A stretch of DNA of 64,000 nucleotides. Source: Acidobacteriota bacterium. Lineage in GTDB: Bacteria > Acidobacteriota > Blastocatellia > UBA7656. The stretch's first letter is position 1; every line of letters starts with the position of its first letter. The notes under the pieces were generated by a model. The model saw only the letters and a list, made by a program, of their open reading frames with translations. It searched no databases and had not been told where the DNA came from. A program made the translations under genes and the position numbers. The stretch is from the NCBI GenBank assembly GCA_040754075.1, contig JBFMDH010000038.1, positions 1 through 64,000 on the forward strand, in the 5' to 3' direction. Shown piece by piece: positions 19,967 to 26,743 of this stretch.

Positions 19967-21244
19967 ATGTTCGCCTCATTGATTCGCAAATCCAAATCCC
20001 CGGTTGCCTTCAGCATTTTAGTATTGGTTATTGCCGTACTGGCTTGCGCTCAGGGAACGCAAAAAAGTTCACAACCTGCGCCCGCTCAAGACAGCGCCCA
20101 GCTCAACCACTACAACATTACCTTGAAAGATTTGCCGCCGCCCGAAGTGCAACGCGGTCCGGTTAATTTTTCCAAAATCATTCCGCGACCCGAAGGCGCA
20201 GACCTCATCGCGCCCAAAGGTTTCATCGTCAGCGAATATGCCGTTGATTTAATCAAGCCGCGCTGGATGCAGCTTGCGCCAAACGGTGATGTGTTTGTTG
20301 CCGAATCCGAAAAAGGGCAGATTTCTATCCTGCGCGACAGCAATAATGACGGCAAAGCCGACGAGCGGTTCATTTTTGCTACGGGACTTTCGCGACCTTT
20401 CGGCATGGCTTTTCAGAATGGTTTTTTGTATATCGGCAACACCGATGCCGTGGTGCGATTCAAATACAAATCCGGGCAGACTAAAGCCGAAGGCGAAGCC
20501 GAAAAAATCGCCAGTTTGCCAATGAACGGCTACCGCGAACACTGGACGCGCAATCTGATTTTCAGCGCGGATGGCAAAAAGCTCTATGTTACGGTCGGCT
20601 CGAAATCCAATGTCAATGCGGGCGAAGAGCCGATGCGCGCGGCGATTTCCGAAATGAATCCCGATGGCACGAACTCGCGCATCTATGCCAGCGGGCTGAG
20701 AAATCCTCTGGGACTGGCGTGGAATCCGACGACCAAACAACTCTGGGTTGCGGTGCAGGAGCGCGATTTGATTGGCAATGACCTGGTTCCCGATTATGTA
20801 ACGTCCGTCAAAGAAGGCGGCTTTTATGGCTGGCCCTATTCCTACATCGGGCAGAACGAAGACCCGCGCCGCAAAGGTGAACGACCTGACCTTGTGCAAA
20901 CAGCCACCGTGCCCGATGTCTTGATTCAGGCGCATTCGGCAATTCTCGGTCTGGTTTTTTACGAAGGCAAAATGTTTCCCAAAGAATATCAGGGCGATGC
21001 TTTTGCCGCTTTGCATGGCTCGTGGAATCGCGACAAGCGCACCGGCTACAATGTCATTCGCATTAAATTTAAAAACGGCAAACCCGTAGGCGGCTATGAT
21101 GAATTCGTCAAAGGCTGGATGCTCGGCGAAGACCAAGACAAAGTCTGGGGCAGACCCGTCGGGCTGCTGGTTTTAAAAGACGGTTCGATGCTCATCACAG
21201 ATGATGGCGCAGGTAAAATCTGGCGCGTCAGTTATAAAAAATAG
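19967..21244 (+). CDS. PQQ-dependent sugar dehydrogenase-like lipoprotein (sorbosone dehydrogenase type)
   Basis: A 425-residue beta-propeller protein of the glucose/L-sorbosone dehydrogenase family, which oxidises sugar aldehydes with pyrroloquinoline quinone in the periplasm. The N-terminus has a lipoprotein signal ending in VLAC, so it is probably anchored in a membrane facing the periplasm. Family blocks include NGDVFVAESEKGQISILRD, ATGLSRPFGMAF, YASGLRNPLGLAWNP, HGSWNRDKRTGYNVIR and a calcium-site-like DGSMLITDDGAGKIWRV. AAGGAG lies about 8 nt before the ATG. Whether PQQ or another cofactor is used cannot be read here. Confidence 0.9.
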   Translation: MFASLIRKSKSPVAFSILVLVIAVLACAQGTQKSSQPAPAQDSAQLNHYNITLKDLPPPEVQRGPVNFSKIIPRPEGADLIAPKGFIVSEYAVDLIKPRWMQLAPNGDVFVAESEKGQISILRDSNNDGKADERFIFATGLSRPFGMAFQNGFLYIGNTDAVVRFKYKSGQTKAEGEAEKIASLPMNGYREHWTRNLIFSADGKKLYVTVGSKSNVNAGEEPMRAAISEMNPDGTNSRIYASGLRNPLGLAWNPTTKQLWVAVQERDLIGNDLVPDYVTSVKEGGFYGWPYSYIGQNEDPRRKGERPDLVQTATVPDVLIQAHSAILGLVFYEGKMFPKEYQGDAFAALHGSWNRDKRTGYNVIRIKFKNGKPVGGYDEFVKGWMLGEDQDKVWGRPVGLLVLKDGSMLITDDGAGKIWRVSYKK

Positions 21245-21427
21245 GATGACTGATTCAAAACGCCTGTGATGCGGAATGCGCCGAAGGAGCATTGCCAAAC
21301 CGCTCACTTGAGTTAAACGAATTAGCGGTTTGATATTTCACCGAACGGCTGATGGATTTTGCTCGTAAGCCCATCAGGTAATTCCTGAAAACCGAATTAA
21401 ATGAACACAAGGAAAAATTAAAAAGTG

Positions 21428-21988
21428 ATGACCCATTTAAACCTGGAAGATTTGCAGGCGGGGCTTGCAACCATTCAACTGTCGCCCAGAGATGAAGGTC
21501 GATTGGAATTAATCGTCCGACGACCGCAAATCGGTGAACGCGAAATTTTACCGGAAGGCGAACTCTGTACGATTGAAGGACTCCTTGGCGACAACTGGCA
21601 AACGCGCAGTAGTTCGCGCACACCGGATAATTCTCCGCATCCCGATATGCAAATCAACATTATGAATGCGCGGGCGATTGCCCTCATTGCACAGGACAAA
21701 TCGCGCTGGCAACTGGCGGGCGATCAGCTTTTCGTTGACCTCGATTTAAGCAAAAGCAATTTGCCGCCGGGAACACGGCTGGCGATTGGTTCGGCAATCG
21801 TCGAAGTCACTGCCGAGCCGCACACCGGCTGTAAAAAATTTGTCGAACGTTTCGGCGTCGATGCTCAGAAATTTGTCAATTCGCCTCTGGGTAGAGAACT
21901 CAACCTGCGCGGCATTAACGCCAAGGTCATTTGCGGAGGCACGATTCGCGTCGGCGATATGGCAAAAAAAATCACCAACGCGGATTAG
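21428..21988 (+). CDS. MOSC domain-containing protein
   Basis: A 186-residue stand-alone MOSC protein, related to the C-terminal domain of molybdenum cofactor sulfurase and to YiiM/mARC proteins. These handle sulfur bound to a conserved cysteine or bind the molybdenum cofactor. The key cysteine is likely that in AEPHTGCKKFVERFG, and the strand pattern before it (LPPGTRLAIGSAIVEVT) is typical. The frame opens with GTG at 21425 directly followed by ATG at 21428; I use the ATG. An AAGGA lies rather far upstream. The integron cassette begins about 110 nt after its stop. Confidence 0.85.
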   Translation: MTHLNLEDLQAGLATIQLSPRDEGRLELIVRRPQIGEREILPEGELCTIEGLLGDNWQTRSSSRTPDNSPHPDMQINIMNARAIALIAQDKSRWQLAGDQLFVDLDLSKSNLPPGTRLAIGSAIVEVTAEPHTGCKKFVERFGVDAQKFVNSPLGRELNLRGINAKVICGGTIRVGDMAKKITNAD

Positions 21989-22095
21989 TTTGCAATTTGA
22001 CTCGAGGCGTCTGTTGATCAACAAAATAAAAAGCTGAACGCCGGTTCGCTTGTTTCGTTAGCGACCTATCAGGCATTCCATCCAGCCAATAATAG

Positions 22096-22798
22096 TTGGG
22101 CGTCCTGACCGTCGTTCAATCAGTTCAATGTCTGACACAGCAAGAAGGAGGATGAATGGCTATAGATAGAGATAATCAAGGCTCAGTTGCTGAGGTAATT
22201 CAAAGCCTGTTCCCAGACGATGCAGCCCAACGTTGCTCTTTAAATTTTCTAGCTGATTCAATCGCTATTGCAGATGCCCTCTCACCAGACCGCTGGGGAT
22301 TGACTCTGAGTAAGGACTTTTTGCGGCTCAATGTCGGAAAGATCGAAGTGCTTGCTTTTTTCTCAAATTTCATCCACTGCTTACTTGATCTTGATACACT
22401 ACCGGAAGAACTGAGGGAAGATGACAGAGTTGGCTTAAAGGAGAACGAAAACGATCCCCGTTTAGGAGTTTATAAGAGTGTCCCCTGTTCAATGGTATGC
22501 GACATATTTGACGAGGAGCCTGAAGAAATACTGGACATCATCAAAGGCTCGCACCGAATTCTGATAGAAAATGCAGCACGAACAGGAAGAAACCCGATGA
22601 CAAAGAGGGGACATTCTCCCACAGCGATTGACTATATAGCATCATATTTGGGGCGTGATTTACCGCAACCAGACTATTGCGGTGGAGAAAGATACTAAAC
22701 CCATCAAAGGCTGCCCAATAACCCGTTGCAGTAGAGTTCGCGAAGTAAGTTTTTCATCATTTCCTCAGTGCCGCTCGCGGCCCCGCTGAACGGGAGCG
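22096..22798 (+). mobile_element. solitary integron gene cassette
   Basis: The 703-bp segment starts after the G of GTTGGGC (22095-22101), a perfect GTTRRRY core, and ends at the G of GTTAGTA (22798-22804). Its 3' end is an attC whose outer box GCCCAAT complements the TTGGGC at the 5' end of the cassette, the signature of a former circular cassette. It carries one gene, with an AAGGAGG, in the same orientation. No integrase, attI or second attC is seen, and the left flank does not look like attC. Removal would restore AATAATAG-TTAGTATT, so this looks like insertion at a secondary chromosomal site. Confidence 0.82.
22156..22698 (+). CDS. Hypothetical protein carried by the integron cassette
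   Basis: I do not recognise a family for this 180-residue protein. It is soluble and acidic, with no signal peptide or membrane segment. Notable stretches are LSPDRWGLTLSKDFLRLNVG, a Glu/Asp-rich middle (DEEPEEILDIIKG) and a C-terminal SPTAIDYIASYLGRDLP. Several cysteines are scattered (CSL, CLL, CSMVC, DYCGG). An AAGGAGG lies about 5 nt before the ATG, better than for most neighbours, as expected for a cassette gene. Composition is somewhat more A+T-rich than the flanking MOSC and sigma genes. Cassette genes often encode unknown accessory functions; none is assigned. Confidence 0.8.
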   Translation: MAIDRDNQGSVAEVIQSLFPDDAAQRCSLNFLADSIAIADALSPDRWGLTLSKDFLRLNVGKIEVLAFFSNFIHCLLDLDTLPEELREDDRVGLKENENDPRLGVYKSVPCSMVCDIFDEEPEEILDIIKGSHRILIENAARTGRNPMTKRGHSPTAIDYIASYLGRDLPQPDYCGGERY

Positions 22799-22804
22799 TT
22801 AGTA
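22713..22804 (+). other. attC recombination site
   Basis: A 92-bp site. The outer boxes are GCCCAAT (22713-22719) and GTTAGTA (22798-22804). The inner stem pairs CCCGTT (22722-22727) with AACGGG (22789-22794), and CAG (22729-22731) with CTG (22786-22788). G22728 is left unpaired as the extrahelical base that directs strand choice by the integron integrase. A variable terminal region lies between. Length and layout fit known attC sites. Confidence 0.85.
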
Positions 22805-22840
22805 TTTGAGCAAAATAAATTTTTGAGGTGAAGGGTACGA

Positions 22841-23410
22841 ATGCAATCACAAGCGGAAATTTCGCGCGACATATTATGGAATGAATTGACTGTTGATTTA
22901 AAAAAATTCATTGTGCGTCGCGTTCCTAACGCTGCCGATGCCGAAGACCTGTTGCAGGATGCGCTTTTTAAAATCCATCGCAACATTGAACGCCTCGCCC
23001 CAAACAGCAATCTCTACGCCTGGGTCTATCAGGTCACGCGCCATACGATTATCGATTATTATCGCAACCATCAACCGAATGTCAGTCTCGATACGGCAAA
23101 CGATTTGCCCGAAGATTTCGCCGAAACCGTTTCAACAAGAAATGTCATCAGCGAAATTGCTGCTTGTCTGCAACCGATGCTCAAGCGTTTGCCGGAAAAA
23201 TATCGCGAAGCCTTGACGCTGGCTGACCTTGAAGGCATCACCCAGACAGAACTTGCCGGGCGTCTCGGAATTTCGCTTTCGGGCGCGAAATCGCGTGTGC
23301 AACGCGCTCGCGAACAACTGCGCGCCGTGATTGCCGAGTGCTGCCATTTTGAGTTCGACTGTCGCGGACAGGTCAAGGATTACCAGTGTAAAAAGCCTTA
23401 CACCTGTTGA
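22841..23410 (+). CDS. ECF-type RNA polymerase sigma factor, SigZ-like
   Basis: A 189-residue sigma70-family factor with region 2 (AEDLLQDALFKIHRNIERL, then YAWVYQVTRHTIIDYYR) and region 4 (LPEKYREALTLADLEGITQTELAGRLGISLSGAKSRVQRAREQLR). It has a cysteine-rich tail (CCHFEFDC and two later Cys) characteristic of SigZ-type factors and possibly metal or redox responsive. It directs RNA polymerase to alternative promoters. No anti-sigma gene is adjacent. GAAGGG lies about 6 nt before the ATG. The cassette insertion point is only about 40 nt upstream, so the cassette may have separated this gene from its promoter. Confidence 0.9.
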   Translation: MQSQAEISRDILWNELTVDLKKFIVRRVPNAADAEDLLQDALFKIHRNIERLAPNSNLYAWVYQVTRHTIIDYYRNHQPNVSLDTANDLPEDFAETVSTRNVISEIAACLQPMLKRLPEKYREALTLADLEGITQTELAGRLGISLSGAKSRVQRAREQLRAVIAECCHFEFDCRGQVKDYQCKKPYTC

Positions 23411-23528
23411 GGCTCAAATTTTTTTTTCAACCAGCCACTTTTTTTGCGTCCTTTTCAATAAGCTGCCGTTTGTAAGGCTAGAGGTCAATCTTGCGGTTGC
23501 CTCTGAGATTAAATAAGGAAAGAACGAT

Positions 23529-24299
23529 ATGAAAATTTTGACCCTGATAACTCTTCTTTGCTTTGTGATGGTCACCGCCTTTGCGCAAGACCCGTTGAAA
23601 GCGTTGCCGGAAAATTACAAACTGCAATTTGAAAATGACTATGTCAAAGTCACCCGCGTTCATTACCCGGCGAATGCAAAACTCGCGGCGCACGCGCATA
23701 CAGCTACAGCCTCGGCTTATGTTTATTTGAATGACAGTGACCCGGTCATTTTCAAACACATCGGCGCACAGTATGGCGCGATTAAGCGACCGGCGACCAA
23801 AGCCGGAAGTTTTCGATTGTACAAAGCGGTTCAGGAAATCCACGAAGTCGAAAATCCATCGAACACGCCGAGCGATTTTCTGCGAGTCGAATTTAAAACC
23901 GAACCGGTGAATGACAAGAGCCTGTATGGTCGCTATTTTCGCGAAGCCTATCCCGAAGGCGAAAATTTTCAGAAAGTCCAATTTGAAAACGAACAGGTGC
24001 GCATCACGCGATTGGTTTGCGCAGCGGGCAAAACTCTGGACGTCAACACCCGTGCTAATGAACCGGGCTTGCTGATTGCTTTAACTCCCGCAATGTTCAA
24101 GGCAAGCAAGGTGAAAGGCAAATCATCATCCCTGAAATTAGAAATGGGACAATCGACCTGGGTTGCGGCAAATCAGGCGCAACAATTGATGAATGCCGGT
24201 CAGTCACCGATTGAGTTGTTGCGTTTCGACTTTAAAACCGCGCCGCTTTCAAAAGCCGAACTGGAAAAGAAAAAGCCCCACGACCATTCTAAAAATTAA
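23529..24299 (+). CDS. Secreted protein with two cupin-like repeats
   Basis: A 256-residue exported protein with signal peptide MKILTLITLLCFVMVTAFAQ. Two related halves are visible: YKLQFENDYVKVTRVHYPANAKLAAHAH and FQKVQFENEQVRITRLVCAAGKTLDV, each opening a cupin-like beta-barrel. The first half keeps histidines (AAHAHT) that could bind a metal; the second lacks them and is probably structural. The tail is Lys/His-rich. AAGGAAAG lies before the ATG. It sits between the SigZ-like gene and a TonB receptor on the same strand, so a shared regulon is possible. Function unknown. Confidence 0.75.
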   Translation: MKILTLITLLCFVMVTAFAQDPLKALPENYKLQFENDYVKVTRVHYPANAKLAAHAHTATASAYVYLNDSDPVIFKHIGAQYGAIKRPATKAGSFRLYKAVQEIHEVENPSNTPSDFLRVEFKTEPVNDKSLYGRYFREAYPEGENFQKVQFENEQVRITRLVCAAGKTLDVNTRANEPGLLIALTPAMFKASKVKGKSSSLKLEMGQSTWVAANQAQQLMNAGQSPIELLRFDFKTAPLSKAELEKKKPHDHSKN

Positions 24300-24385
24300 T
24301 TTCGTAACTTCCGCTGACCTTTCCACGTCAAAGCTGCACGCTTCCATATTTCAAGGTGAAGCGTGCTTTGACTTTTCGGAACGAA

Positions 24386-26743
24386 ATGCGTCAAATAATG
24401 CCTATGATTGATCGACAACCGCTCAAAACCAATTCAAAAAGAAGAGAAATCCGCATTGCATTTTTTAGTGCCTTGATGATTTTCATCTTCACCGTTCAAG
24501 CCGCCGCCTGGCAAATTACCAAATTTAAAATCGAAGGTCGCGTTCTTGACCAGACCGGCGCGGCGATTGTCGGCGCGAAGGTGAGTTGCCGAACCACAGA
24601 ACGCGGTTCCCAACTTGACGCGACAACGACCAATCAGGACGGCTATTTTTCATTCAAGGAAAGTGTCGCAGGAAAATATGTGCTGGTGATTTCTGCAAGC
24701 GGTTTCAAAGCGGTTTCACGCGAAATCAATCTGCAACAAAACCTCAACCTCGACATCACGCTTACCCCCGAATCAGTCACCGAACAAGTTACGATTACCG
24801 CTGAACGCACGCTGACGCGAGTGAGTGAAACCGCAACCAGCGTCGCCGTTTTATCAACGGAAGATTTGACAACGACATCGGCGCTCATGCTCGATGACGC
24901 ATTAAGACAAGTGCCGGGCTTTTCCTTGTTCCGCCGTTCCGGTAGTCGCACCGCGAACCCGACGACGCAGGGCGTATCGTTTCGCGGAGTCGGCGCAAGC
25001 GGTGCAAGCCGCGCAGTGATTTTAACCGATGGCATTCCGCTCAATGACCCGTTCGGCGGGTGGATTTACTGGGGACGTGTGCCACGCGAAGAGGTAAGCC
25101 GCATCGAAGTGGTGCGCGGTGGCGCGTCCAATCTTTACGGGTCGGATGCGCTCGGCGGCGTCATCAATTTTATTCCGCGCGAAAATCACGACGCGGCATT
25201 TTCGTTAGAGACCGCTTACGGCAATCAGCAAACGCCGAGCGGTTCATTTTTTGCGGGCGGGCGGTTCGGCAAATTCGGCGCGCAAATTTCCGGTCAGGCT
25301 CTGCATACCGATGGTTACATCCTGGTTGACGAAAATGAACGCGGCAGCGTCGATACCAGAGCGGGCGCGGAATTTTCAACTCTCGATGCAACGCTTGAAC
25401 GCTCCATTGCGGATAAAGGACGGGTCTTCATTCGCGGTTCGGTATTCGGCGAATCGCGTGAAAACGGCACCCCGTTGCAGACCAATCGCACCCACATCAG
25501 GCAATTCGCAAGCGGTTTCGATTGGAGGTCGGTAACCGTCGGCGCACTGCTCATTCGCGCTTATGGCAGCACACAGGTTTACAATCAGAGCTTTTCGGCA
25601 ATTGCTGCAAATCGCAACAGCGAAAACTTAACCCGCGACCAGCGCACGCCTGCACAACAAATCGGCTTTACGTCGGGTTGGTCGCGCGCGGCGGGCAACC
25701 GGCAAACCTTAGTTGCGGGATTCGATTTTCGCGAAGTGCGCGGCGCAAGCGATGAACTGGTTTTCGCAGGCGGGCGCATCACCTCGGCGGTCGGCGCAGG
25801 CGGGCGTCAACGAATCTTTGGCATTTACGGGCAGAACATCATTCGCCTCACCGATAAATTTTTTGCGACGATTGGCGGTCGCGTTGACCGCTGGCGCAAT
25901 TATGACGGGCTTTCGACCAGTCGTGTGTTTGCAACCGCAGTCGTCACTCCAACATTTTTTAAAGACCGCGCGGAAACCGCCTTCAGCCCGCGATTGTCTT
26001 TGCTTTATAAAGCGCATGAAAATGTTTCGCTCTTTGTGTCGGGCTATCGCGCCTTTCGCGCGCCGACCTTGAATGAATTGTACCGCTCGTTTCGCGTCGG
26101 CAATGTTCTCACGCAAGCCAACAGTAATTTGCAGGCTGAAAGACTCACAGGCGGTGAAGCGGGCGCAAACCTCAATGCCTTCAAACAGCGAATGAATTTA
26201 CGCGGCACATTTTTCTGGACGGAAATCATCAGACCGGTAGCCAATGTGACGCGCTCGGTGACCCCCGATTTGATTACCAGACAGCGGCAAAATCTCGGAC
26301 GCACACGTTCACGCGGCGTTGAGTTTGAAGCCGAAGCGCGACTGACGAATTCCATTGCCATTACCGGCGGCTATCTCTTCGCCGATGCCACAGTACGACG
26401 CTTTCCGACGAATCGCTCACTTGAAGGTTTATGGATTCCACAGGTGCCGCGCCATCAAATGACTTTTCAATTTCGTTACGCTAATCCGTCGATTATTACG
26501 GTAGGCGTTCAAGGACGCGCCATCGGTACGCAATTCGATGATGACCAGAATTTATTTGAACTGGACAAATTCTTCACCCTTGATTTATTCGCGTCGCGCC
26601 GCCTGACACAAGGCGTAGAAGTTTTTGCGGCATTTGAAAATCTCTTTGACCAGAAATATGACATCGGGCGAACCCCGGTCAGAACATTGGGACCGCCCAT
26701 CTTAGCTCGCGTGGGACTCAGATTGAATTTCGGCGCGCGATGA
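24386..26743 (+). CDS. TonB-dependent outer membrane receptor with N-terminal carboxypeptidase-regulatory domain
   Basis: A receptor of about 785 residues. After a signal-like segment (IAFFSALMIFIFTVQAAA) comes an Ig-like carboxypeptidase-regulatory domain (IEGRVLDQTGAAIVGAKV), then the plug (LDDALRQVPGFSLFRRSG, VILTDGIPLNDPFGGWIYW, IEVVRGGASNLYGSDALGG). The beta-barrel ends in an aromatic/Arg-containing strand (VGLRLNFGAR). It imports a scarce ligand, powered by TonB; BtuB-like plug wording suggests iron chelates or cobalamin, which is inference. The frame opens at a GTG (24356); the ATG at 24386 has GGAACG close upstream and is chosen tentatively. Confidence 0.88.
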   Translation: MRQIMPMIDRQPLKTNSKRREIRIAFFSALMIFIFTVQAAAWQITKFKIEGRVLDQTGAAIVGAKVSCRTTERGSQLDATTTNQDGYFSFKESVAGKYVLVISASGFKAVSREINLQQNLNLDITLTPESVTEQVTITAERTLTRVSETATSVAVLSTEDLTTTSALMLDDALRQVPGFSLFRRSGSRTANPTTQGVSFRGVGASGASRAVILTDGIPLNDPFGGWIYWGRVPREEVSRIEVVRGGASNLYGSDALGGVINFIPRENHDAAFSLETAYGNQQTPSGSFFAGGRFGKFGAQISGQALHTDGYILVDENERGSVDTRAGAEFSTLDATLERSIADKGRVFIRGSVFGESRENGTPLQTNRTHIRQFASGFDWRSVTVGALLIRAYGSTQVYNQSFSAIAANRNSENLTRDQRTPAQQIGFTSGWSRAAGNRQTLVAGFDFREVRGASDELVFAGGRITSAVGAGGRQRIFGIYGQNIIRLTDKFFATIGGRVDRWRNYDGLSTSRVFATAVVTPTFFKDRAETAFSPRLSLLYKAHENVSLFVSGYRAFRAPTLNELYRSFRVGNVLTQANSNLQAERLTGGEAGANLNAFKQRMNLRGTFFWTEIIRPVANVTRSVTPDLITRQRQNLGRTRSRGVEFEAEARLTNSIAITGGYLFADATVRRFPTNRSLEGLWIPQVPRHQMTFQFRYANPSIITVGVQGRAIGTQFDDDQNLFELDKFFTLDLFASRRLTQGVEVFAAFENLFDQKYDIGRTPVRTLGPPILARVGLRLNFGAR

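Follow-up and report, generated by a model that had tools for sequence, protein, structure and literature searches.

We analysed a window of 64,000 nucleotides (positions 1 to 64,000 of contig JBFMDH010000038.1, hereafter C38) from an Acidobacteriota genome (GCA_040754075.1), in which a gene cassette of the integron type lies between the genes of a MOSC-domain protein and of an ECF-type sigma factor, all on the same strand (Table 1). A GTTGGGC core starts at 22095 and a right-hand GTT starts at 22798, which sets the limits of the unit at 22096-22798. The analysis confirmed that this mobile unit is real and that its limits are exact to the base. An integron cassette usually consists of one promoterless open reading frame that occupies most of the unit. 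The present one has a single frame of 180 amino acids (22156-22698) that fills most of its 703 bp, and a search of 21950-22900 returned no sigma70-like promoter. Its GC content differs little from that of the window (0.47 vs 0.50).

Table 1. Positions of the cassette, its recombination sites and its neighbours in the window
Feature	Position	Strand	Remark
MOSC-domain protein, upstream neighbour	21425-21988	+	Pfam PF03473
Chromosomal flank to the left of the insertion	22065-22095	+	ends in CCAATAATAG
Left core GTTGGGC	22095-22101	+	pairs with R'' of the same cassette (22713-22719)
Integron gene cassette	22096-22798	+	703 bp between two G^TT crossover points
AAGGAGG, Shine-Dalgarno-like, ahead of the cassette ATG	22143-22151 (approximate)	+	read from the sequence
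Cassette gene, 180 aa	22156-22698	+	stand-alone form of a domain fused elsewhere
attC	22713-22803	+	R2 covariance model, 58.3 bits
Right chromosomal flank	22799-22830	+	begins with TTAGTATTTGAGC
ECF-type sigma factor, downstream neighbour	22841-23410	+	Pfam Sigma70_r2 and r4_2

The attC at the right end has all the expected boxes: R'' is GCCCAAT (22713-22719), L'' is CCCGTT-G-CAG with an extrahelical G, L' is CTG-AACGGG, separated from L'' by a variable loop, and R' is GTTAG from 22798, the outer bases of which are now supplied by the chromosome. R'' matches the cassette start GTTGGGC by six Watson-Crick pairs and one T.G, a better pairing than for any other GTT over 2.6 kb of upstream sequence (score of 6.5 vs 4.5). 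The complementarity between R'' and R' is weak when taken alone, with a chance of an exact match of about 4% in 620 bp by our own estimate. An earlier sequence-only reading of this DNA had described a GTTGGGC core at the left edge, a textbook attC with one extrahelical G at the right, and an attC outer box complementary to the first bases of the cassette. All three elements were recovered here.

The bare attC hairpin has an ordinary stability (DNA-fold z-score of -0.74 relative to shuffled sequences), so that the evidence for the site comes from a profile of sequence plus structure, not from stability. Since a scan of 20000-25000 with Rfam gave no match, we built two attC models, one (R1) from integrons of a sister genus and the other (R2) from this genome. 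R1 is a covariance model of 18 attCs from intI-linked arrays in two genomes of the same family (G003 and G004). In its alignment, 91.5% of the cells are paired and 15 of the 21 pairs show changes on both sides, which is strong covariation, in counts that lean towards structure because the alignment was arranged by pairing. R1 is less specific than R2; it ranks 22713-22803 first in the window, weakly (15.2 bits, E of 0.08), and finds many strong attCs in the window's own genome. For R2 we took 26 attCs of this genome and left out the window site, to which the model gives 58.3 bits (E of 1.2e-14 in the 64-kb window and of 1.5e-12 genome-wide). Its second-best match in the window reaches only 13.4 bits, and the same model scores attCs of the intI-linked arrays in G003 and G004 at up to 87.5 bits. 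When the 2348 GTTs of the window are scored with an attC half-site profile, the 3' half of the attC also comes first (25.1 vs 14.0 bits), and the site has AACCCGTTGCAG and CCCGCTGAACGGGAGCGTTA in common with one attC on contig C1. A simple pairing descriptor missed the window attC, because the outer bases of R' are now chromosomal. The sequence-only reading had proposed a covariance-model search and would have given up the attC had such models found nothing; the site was ranked first, weakly, by R1 and was clearly found by R2.

The left junction scores -26.5 bits in the half-site profile (rank 2124 of 2348), like random GTTs, and bears no attI-like sequence when compared with the one present in this genome (TTCGCCGAATTCATGTT). 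It is thus neither an attI nor an attC, and the insertion point would be of the attG type. Once the cassette is removed, the flanks rejoin as CCAATAATAG followed by TTAGTATTTGAGC, or in short form as AATAATAG followed by TTAGTATT. R2 found no second attC on C38, and these results agree with the earlier description of a simple GTT target with neither attI nor another attC. A decayed attC had been suspected upstream, at about 21990-22061, and this was unsupported: no degraded site was found in 21900-22120, where the best score is 3.8 bits. A weak CGTTAGC at 22057 ranks only 62 of 2348 in the half-site profile.

The neighbourhood of the cassette is variable. The MOSC gene is absent from six genomes of the same family, and its best matches are scattered over several phyla. 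Its adjacency to the sigma gene was not seen among 80 MOSC loci, and the search with the sigma gene retrieved a sole relative, in G003 (38-40%), with other genes upstream. Neither the MOSC nor the sigma gene led to a locus with both flanks, that is to an empty site, among the genomes examined.

The cassette shares its genome with putative machinery for moving such elements. The only integrase above cut-off is encoded on contig C59 (TIGR02249, 473 bits for a cut-off of 265), which fits the earlier statement that the window has no intI. Its frame is open over 320 amino acids and aligns end to end, undisrupted, with three IntIs of the same family; the conserved R, K, HxxR, H and Y catalytic positions are present by inspection. 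The gene thus looks intact, as judged from its sequence. Beside it, near the contig end, is the attI-like site TTCGCCGAATTCATGTT (C59:12879-12896), copies of which head two attC arrays lacking intI (C1:270042-270059 and C5:109517-109534, both on the reverse strand). The attI-like sites of C59 and C1 are both preceded by CATCYATTAGYAGATGG repeats, and the ends of C59 showed no overlap with the other contigs compared.

The search for further attCs in the genome, which had been recommended together with that for intI, gave a total of about 45 with R2. When grouped at 5 kb, they occupy 20 places, of which 13 are solitary attCs and seven are clusters. Three of the solitary ones, on C29, C13 and C46, are no more than about 1.3 kb from the end of their contig, and the match on C31 is partial, leaving about nine that are well placed. 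Single cassettes outside integrons had been described as rarely recorded; in this genome they are no rarity. Arrays without intI are found on C49, C1, C5, C52 and C2. The array of C49 has 16 attCs spread over about 0.8-22 kb, and no intI was found on that contig.

Solitary attCs are also present in related genomes. Matches to attC occur in each of the seven genomes of the family (7-46 each, and 7-44 in the six other than the window's genome), and among the matches listed at least 11 are solitary in G003 and at least five in G004. In G004 the intI (C28:3404-4342) is upstream of, and co-directional with, its cassettes (attCs from 5087 on), unlike the usual divergent layout of intI and cassettes seen in G003. 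A second solitary attC of the window's genome, at C9:50614, ends a cassette (C9:49675-50705) whose gene encodes the domain of the 180-aa cassette product and an HNH nuclease. This cassette sits at the shared end of the convergent rfaE and hydrolase genes. In the same-family genome G005 these genes are convergent neighbours with a gap of 230 bp and no attC. Rejoining the flanks of the C9 site in the window's genome would yield CAATACAGGTTAAGCAG, a sequence that would supply both genes with a stop codon. The comparison with G005 supports the insertion of the C9 cassette at the level of gene order, not at that of an empty site read base by base.

The 180-aa protein has no match in Pfam, NCBIfam or PADLOC, and the gene had been said to belong to no known family. 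Yet, it has recognisable relatives. The C9 protein is similar in its N-terminal part (about 33% identity), carries the HNH domain (Pfam) at its C-terminus and also matches mREase_IV of PADLOC (34 bits). Two other homologues occur in a genome of the same order (G007), and the one that was scanned carries EVE and AAA_5 (McrB-like AAA+) domains. A further genome of the phylum encodes a stand-alone form of about 180 amino acids, near which no attC was found. The HNH or EVE and AAA_5 domains are present only in the homologues, the cassette protein itself having no nuclease or NTPase domain. An AlphaFold2 single-sequence model was uninformative (mean pLDDT of 39.8). The position of the domain at the N-terminus of HNH and EVE-McrB-like proteins points to a link with restriction: it would belong to modification-dependent restriction proteins, perhaps as their recognition part, and the product of the cassette may recognise modified DNA or modulate restriction.

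Our results suggest that the cassette was very probably inserted by an integron integrase at a non-integron chromosomal site of the attG type. With a single attC on C38 and no intI nearby, the locus qualifies as a SALIN. The earlier proposal, that a solitary cassette occupies a secondary site of the chromosome, is in this way supported by an attC of the type found throughout this genome, by a left junction that is not an att site, and by the lack of other attCs on the contig. A circular cassette would have been inserted once, between the MOSC and sigma genes, at a simple G^TT target. This step would most likely have been carried out by the integron integrase that the host itself encodes on C59. 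In the mechanism known for these enzymes, the bottom strand of the folded attC would be cleaved at the G^TT point of the core and then joined to the chromosomal site, leaving the start of R' on the left and the attC on the right. The gene has a putative ribosome-binding sequence of its own and is probably transcribed by read-through from upstream in the same direction. The acting integrase, the single insertion event, the expression of the gene and the function of its protein are what we infer from these data.

Other histories might produce a lone cassette. It could be the last survivor of a longer array or integron that lost its attI and the rest of its cassettes by excision or deletion. Such decay is plausible in principle in a genome where arrays lacking intI are found on five contigs, one of them with 16 attCs, but the left junction has neither an attC half-site nor an attI-like sequence, no degraded attC was found in the stretch upstream, and the weak CGTTAGC there ranks only 62 of 2348. 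We thus regard this history as unlikely. Given the contig breaks and the unlinked location of intI, the region may nevertheless once have belonged to a larger array. The cassette might also have come embedded in a larger horizontally acquired segment, such as a plasmid, a phage or an island, without being inserted here by itself. The variable neighbourhood, with a MOSC gene missing from relatives and with best matches spread over several phyla, fits such an arrival. Yet, the cassette protein has no match in plasmids, phages or viral contigs, and the composition of the cassette is close to that of the window, which makes this origin very unlikely.

It could finally be argued that an inverted repeat arose by chance or convergence next to an ordinary gene, because the hairpin is no stabler than shuffled sequences and because the sister-genus model alone is equivocal. 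But the model trained on attCs of the same genome, with this one left out, recognises the site with a high score, another attC of the genome shares long identical stretches with it, and its 3' half surpasses every other GTT site of the window. On these scores, the idea of a chance hairpin has almost no probability left and is rejected.

Insertion by an integrase at an attG-type site, the reading that we favour, has precedents. Single attCs without an integrase have been named SALINs (single attC lacking integron-integrase; PMC12690207), and single-attC elements can be true positives according to IntegronFinder 2.0 (PMC9024848). The window locus, with one cassette, one attC and no adjoining intI or attI, does not differ from them in kind; its host is an Acidobacteriota that has many solitary attCs and encodes an intI at another location. 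For CALINs, one proposed origin is off-target insertion by an IntI whose gene lies elsewhere in the genome (PMC8618304). The attG sites were already described (Loot et al. 2024 Nat Microbiol, as reported in PMC11023631, PMC12444791 and PMC12901181), and, as far as these accounts go, they share with the window locus the integration of a cassette at a genomic site that is neither attI nor attC. That work, as outlined in PMC12444791, used cassette libraries in E. coli, whereas we describe a natural insertion whose mobility is predicted from sequence. In the secondary-site insertions of aadB (Recchia & Hall 1995; Segal & Elisha 1997, as cited in PMC10127599), a single cassette likewise lies precisely at a non-integron site; from what the citing article reports, these were resistance cassettes in plasmids, whereas the present one is chromosomal and carries a non-resistance gene. 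The CALINs of Xanthomonas (PMC12444791) are also dispersed to chromosomal places far from intI, but, unlike the single attC of the window, each of them groups two or more attCs, and their positions are relatively conserved. As for the view that few such cassettes are recorded from this phylum, attCs of Acidobacteria had already been used for a taxon model (PMC8352920).

The window cassette is therefore genuine but of a known kind, and it is the wide dispersal of such cassettes in the family and the restriction-linked cargo that are worth following. Natural insertions of cassettes outside integrons show that integrases are able to deliver genes to chromosomes in general. This genome, which combines an intI with attI-like sites, arrays and about a dozen solitary cassettes, is a good natural system to study how often attG insertions become fixed and which genes are left, and the presence of attCs in all seven genomes strengthens the family as such a system. 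The cargo also connects cassettes with modification-dependent restriction proteins. A broader view, which we put forward tentatively and as something short of an expectation, is that the dispersal of single cassettes to non-integron sites is normal and long-standing in this family of Acidobacteriota. Its genomes might then be distributed stores of cassettes, with several attI-like sites and an intI acting in trans, and might spread a single restriction-linked domain both on its own and fused to a nuclease.
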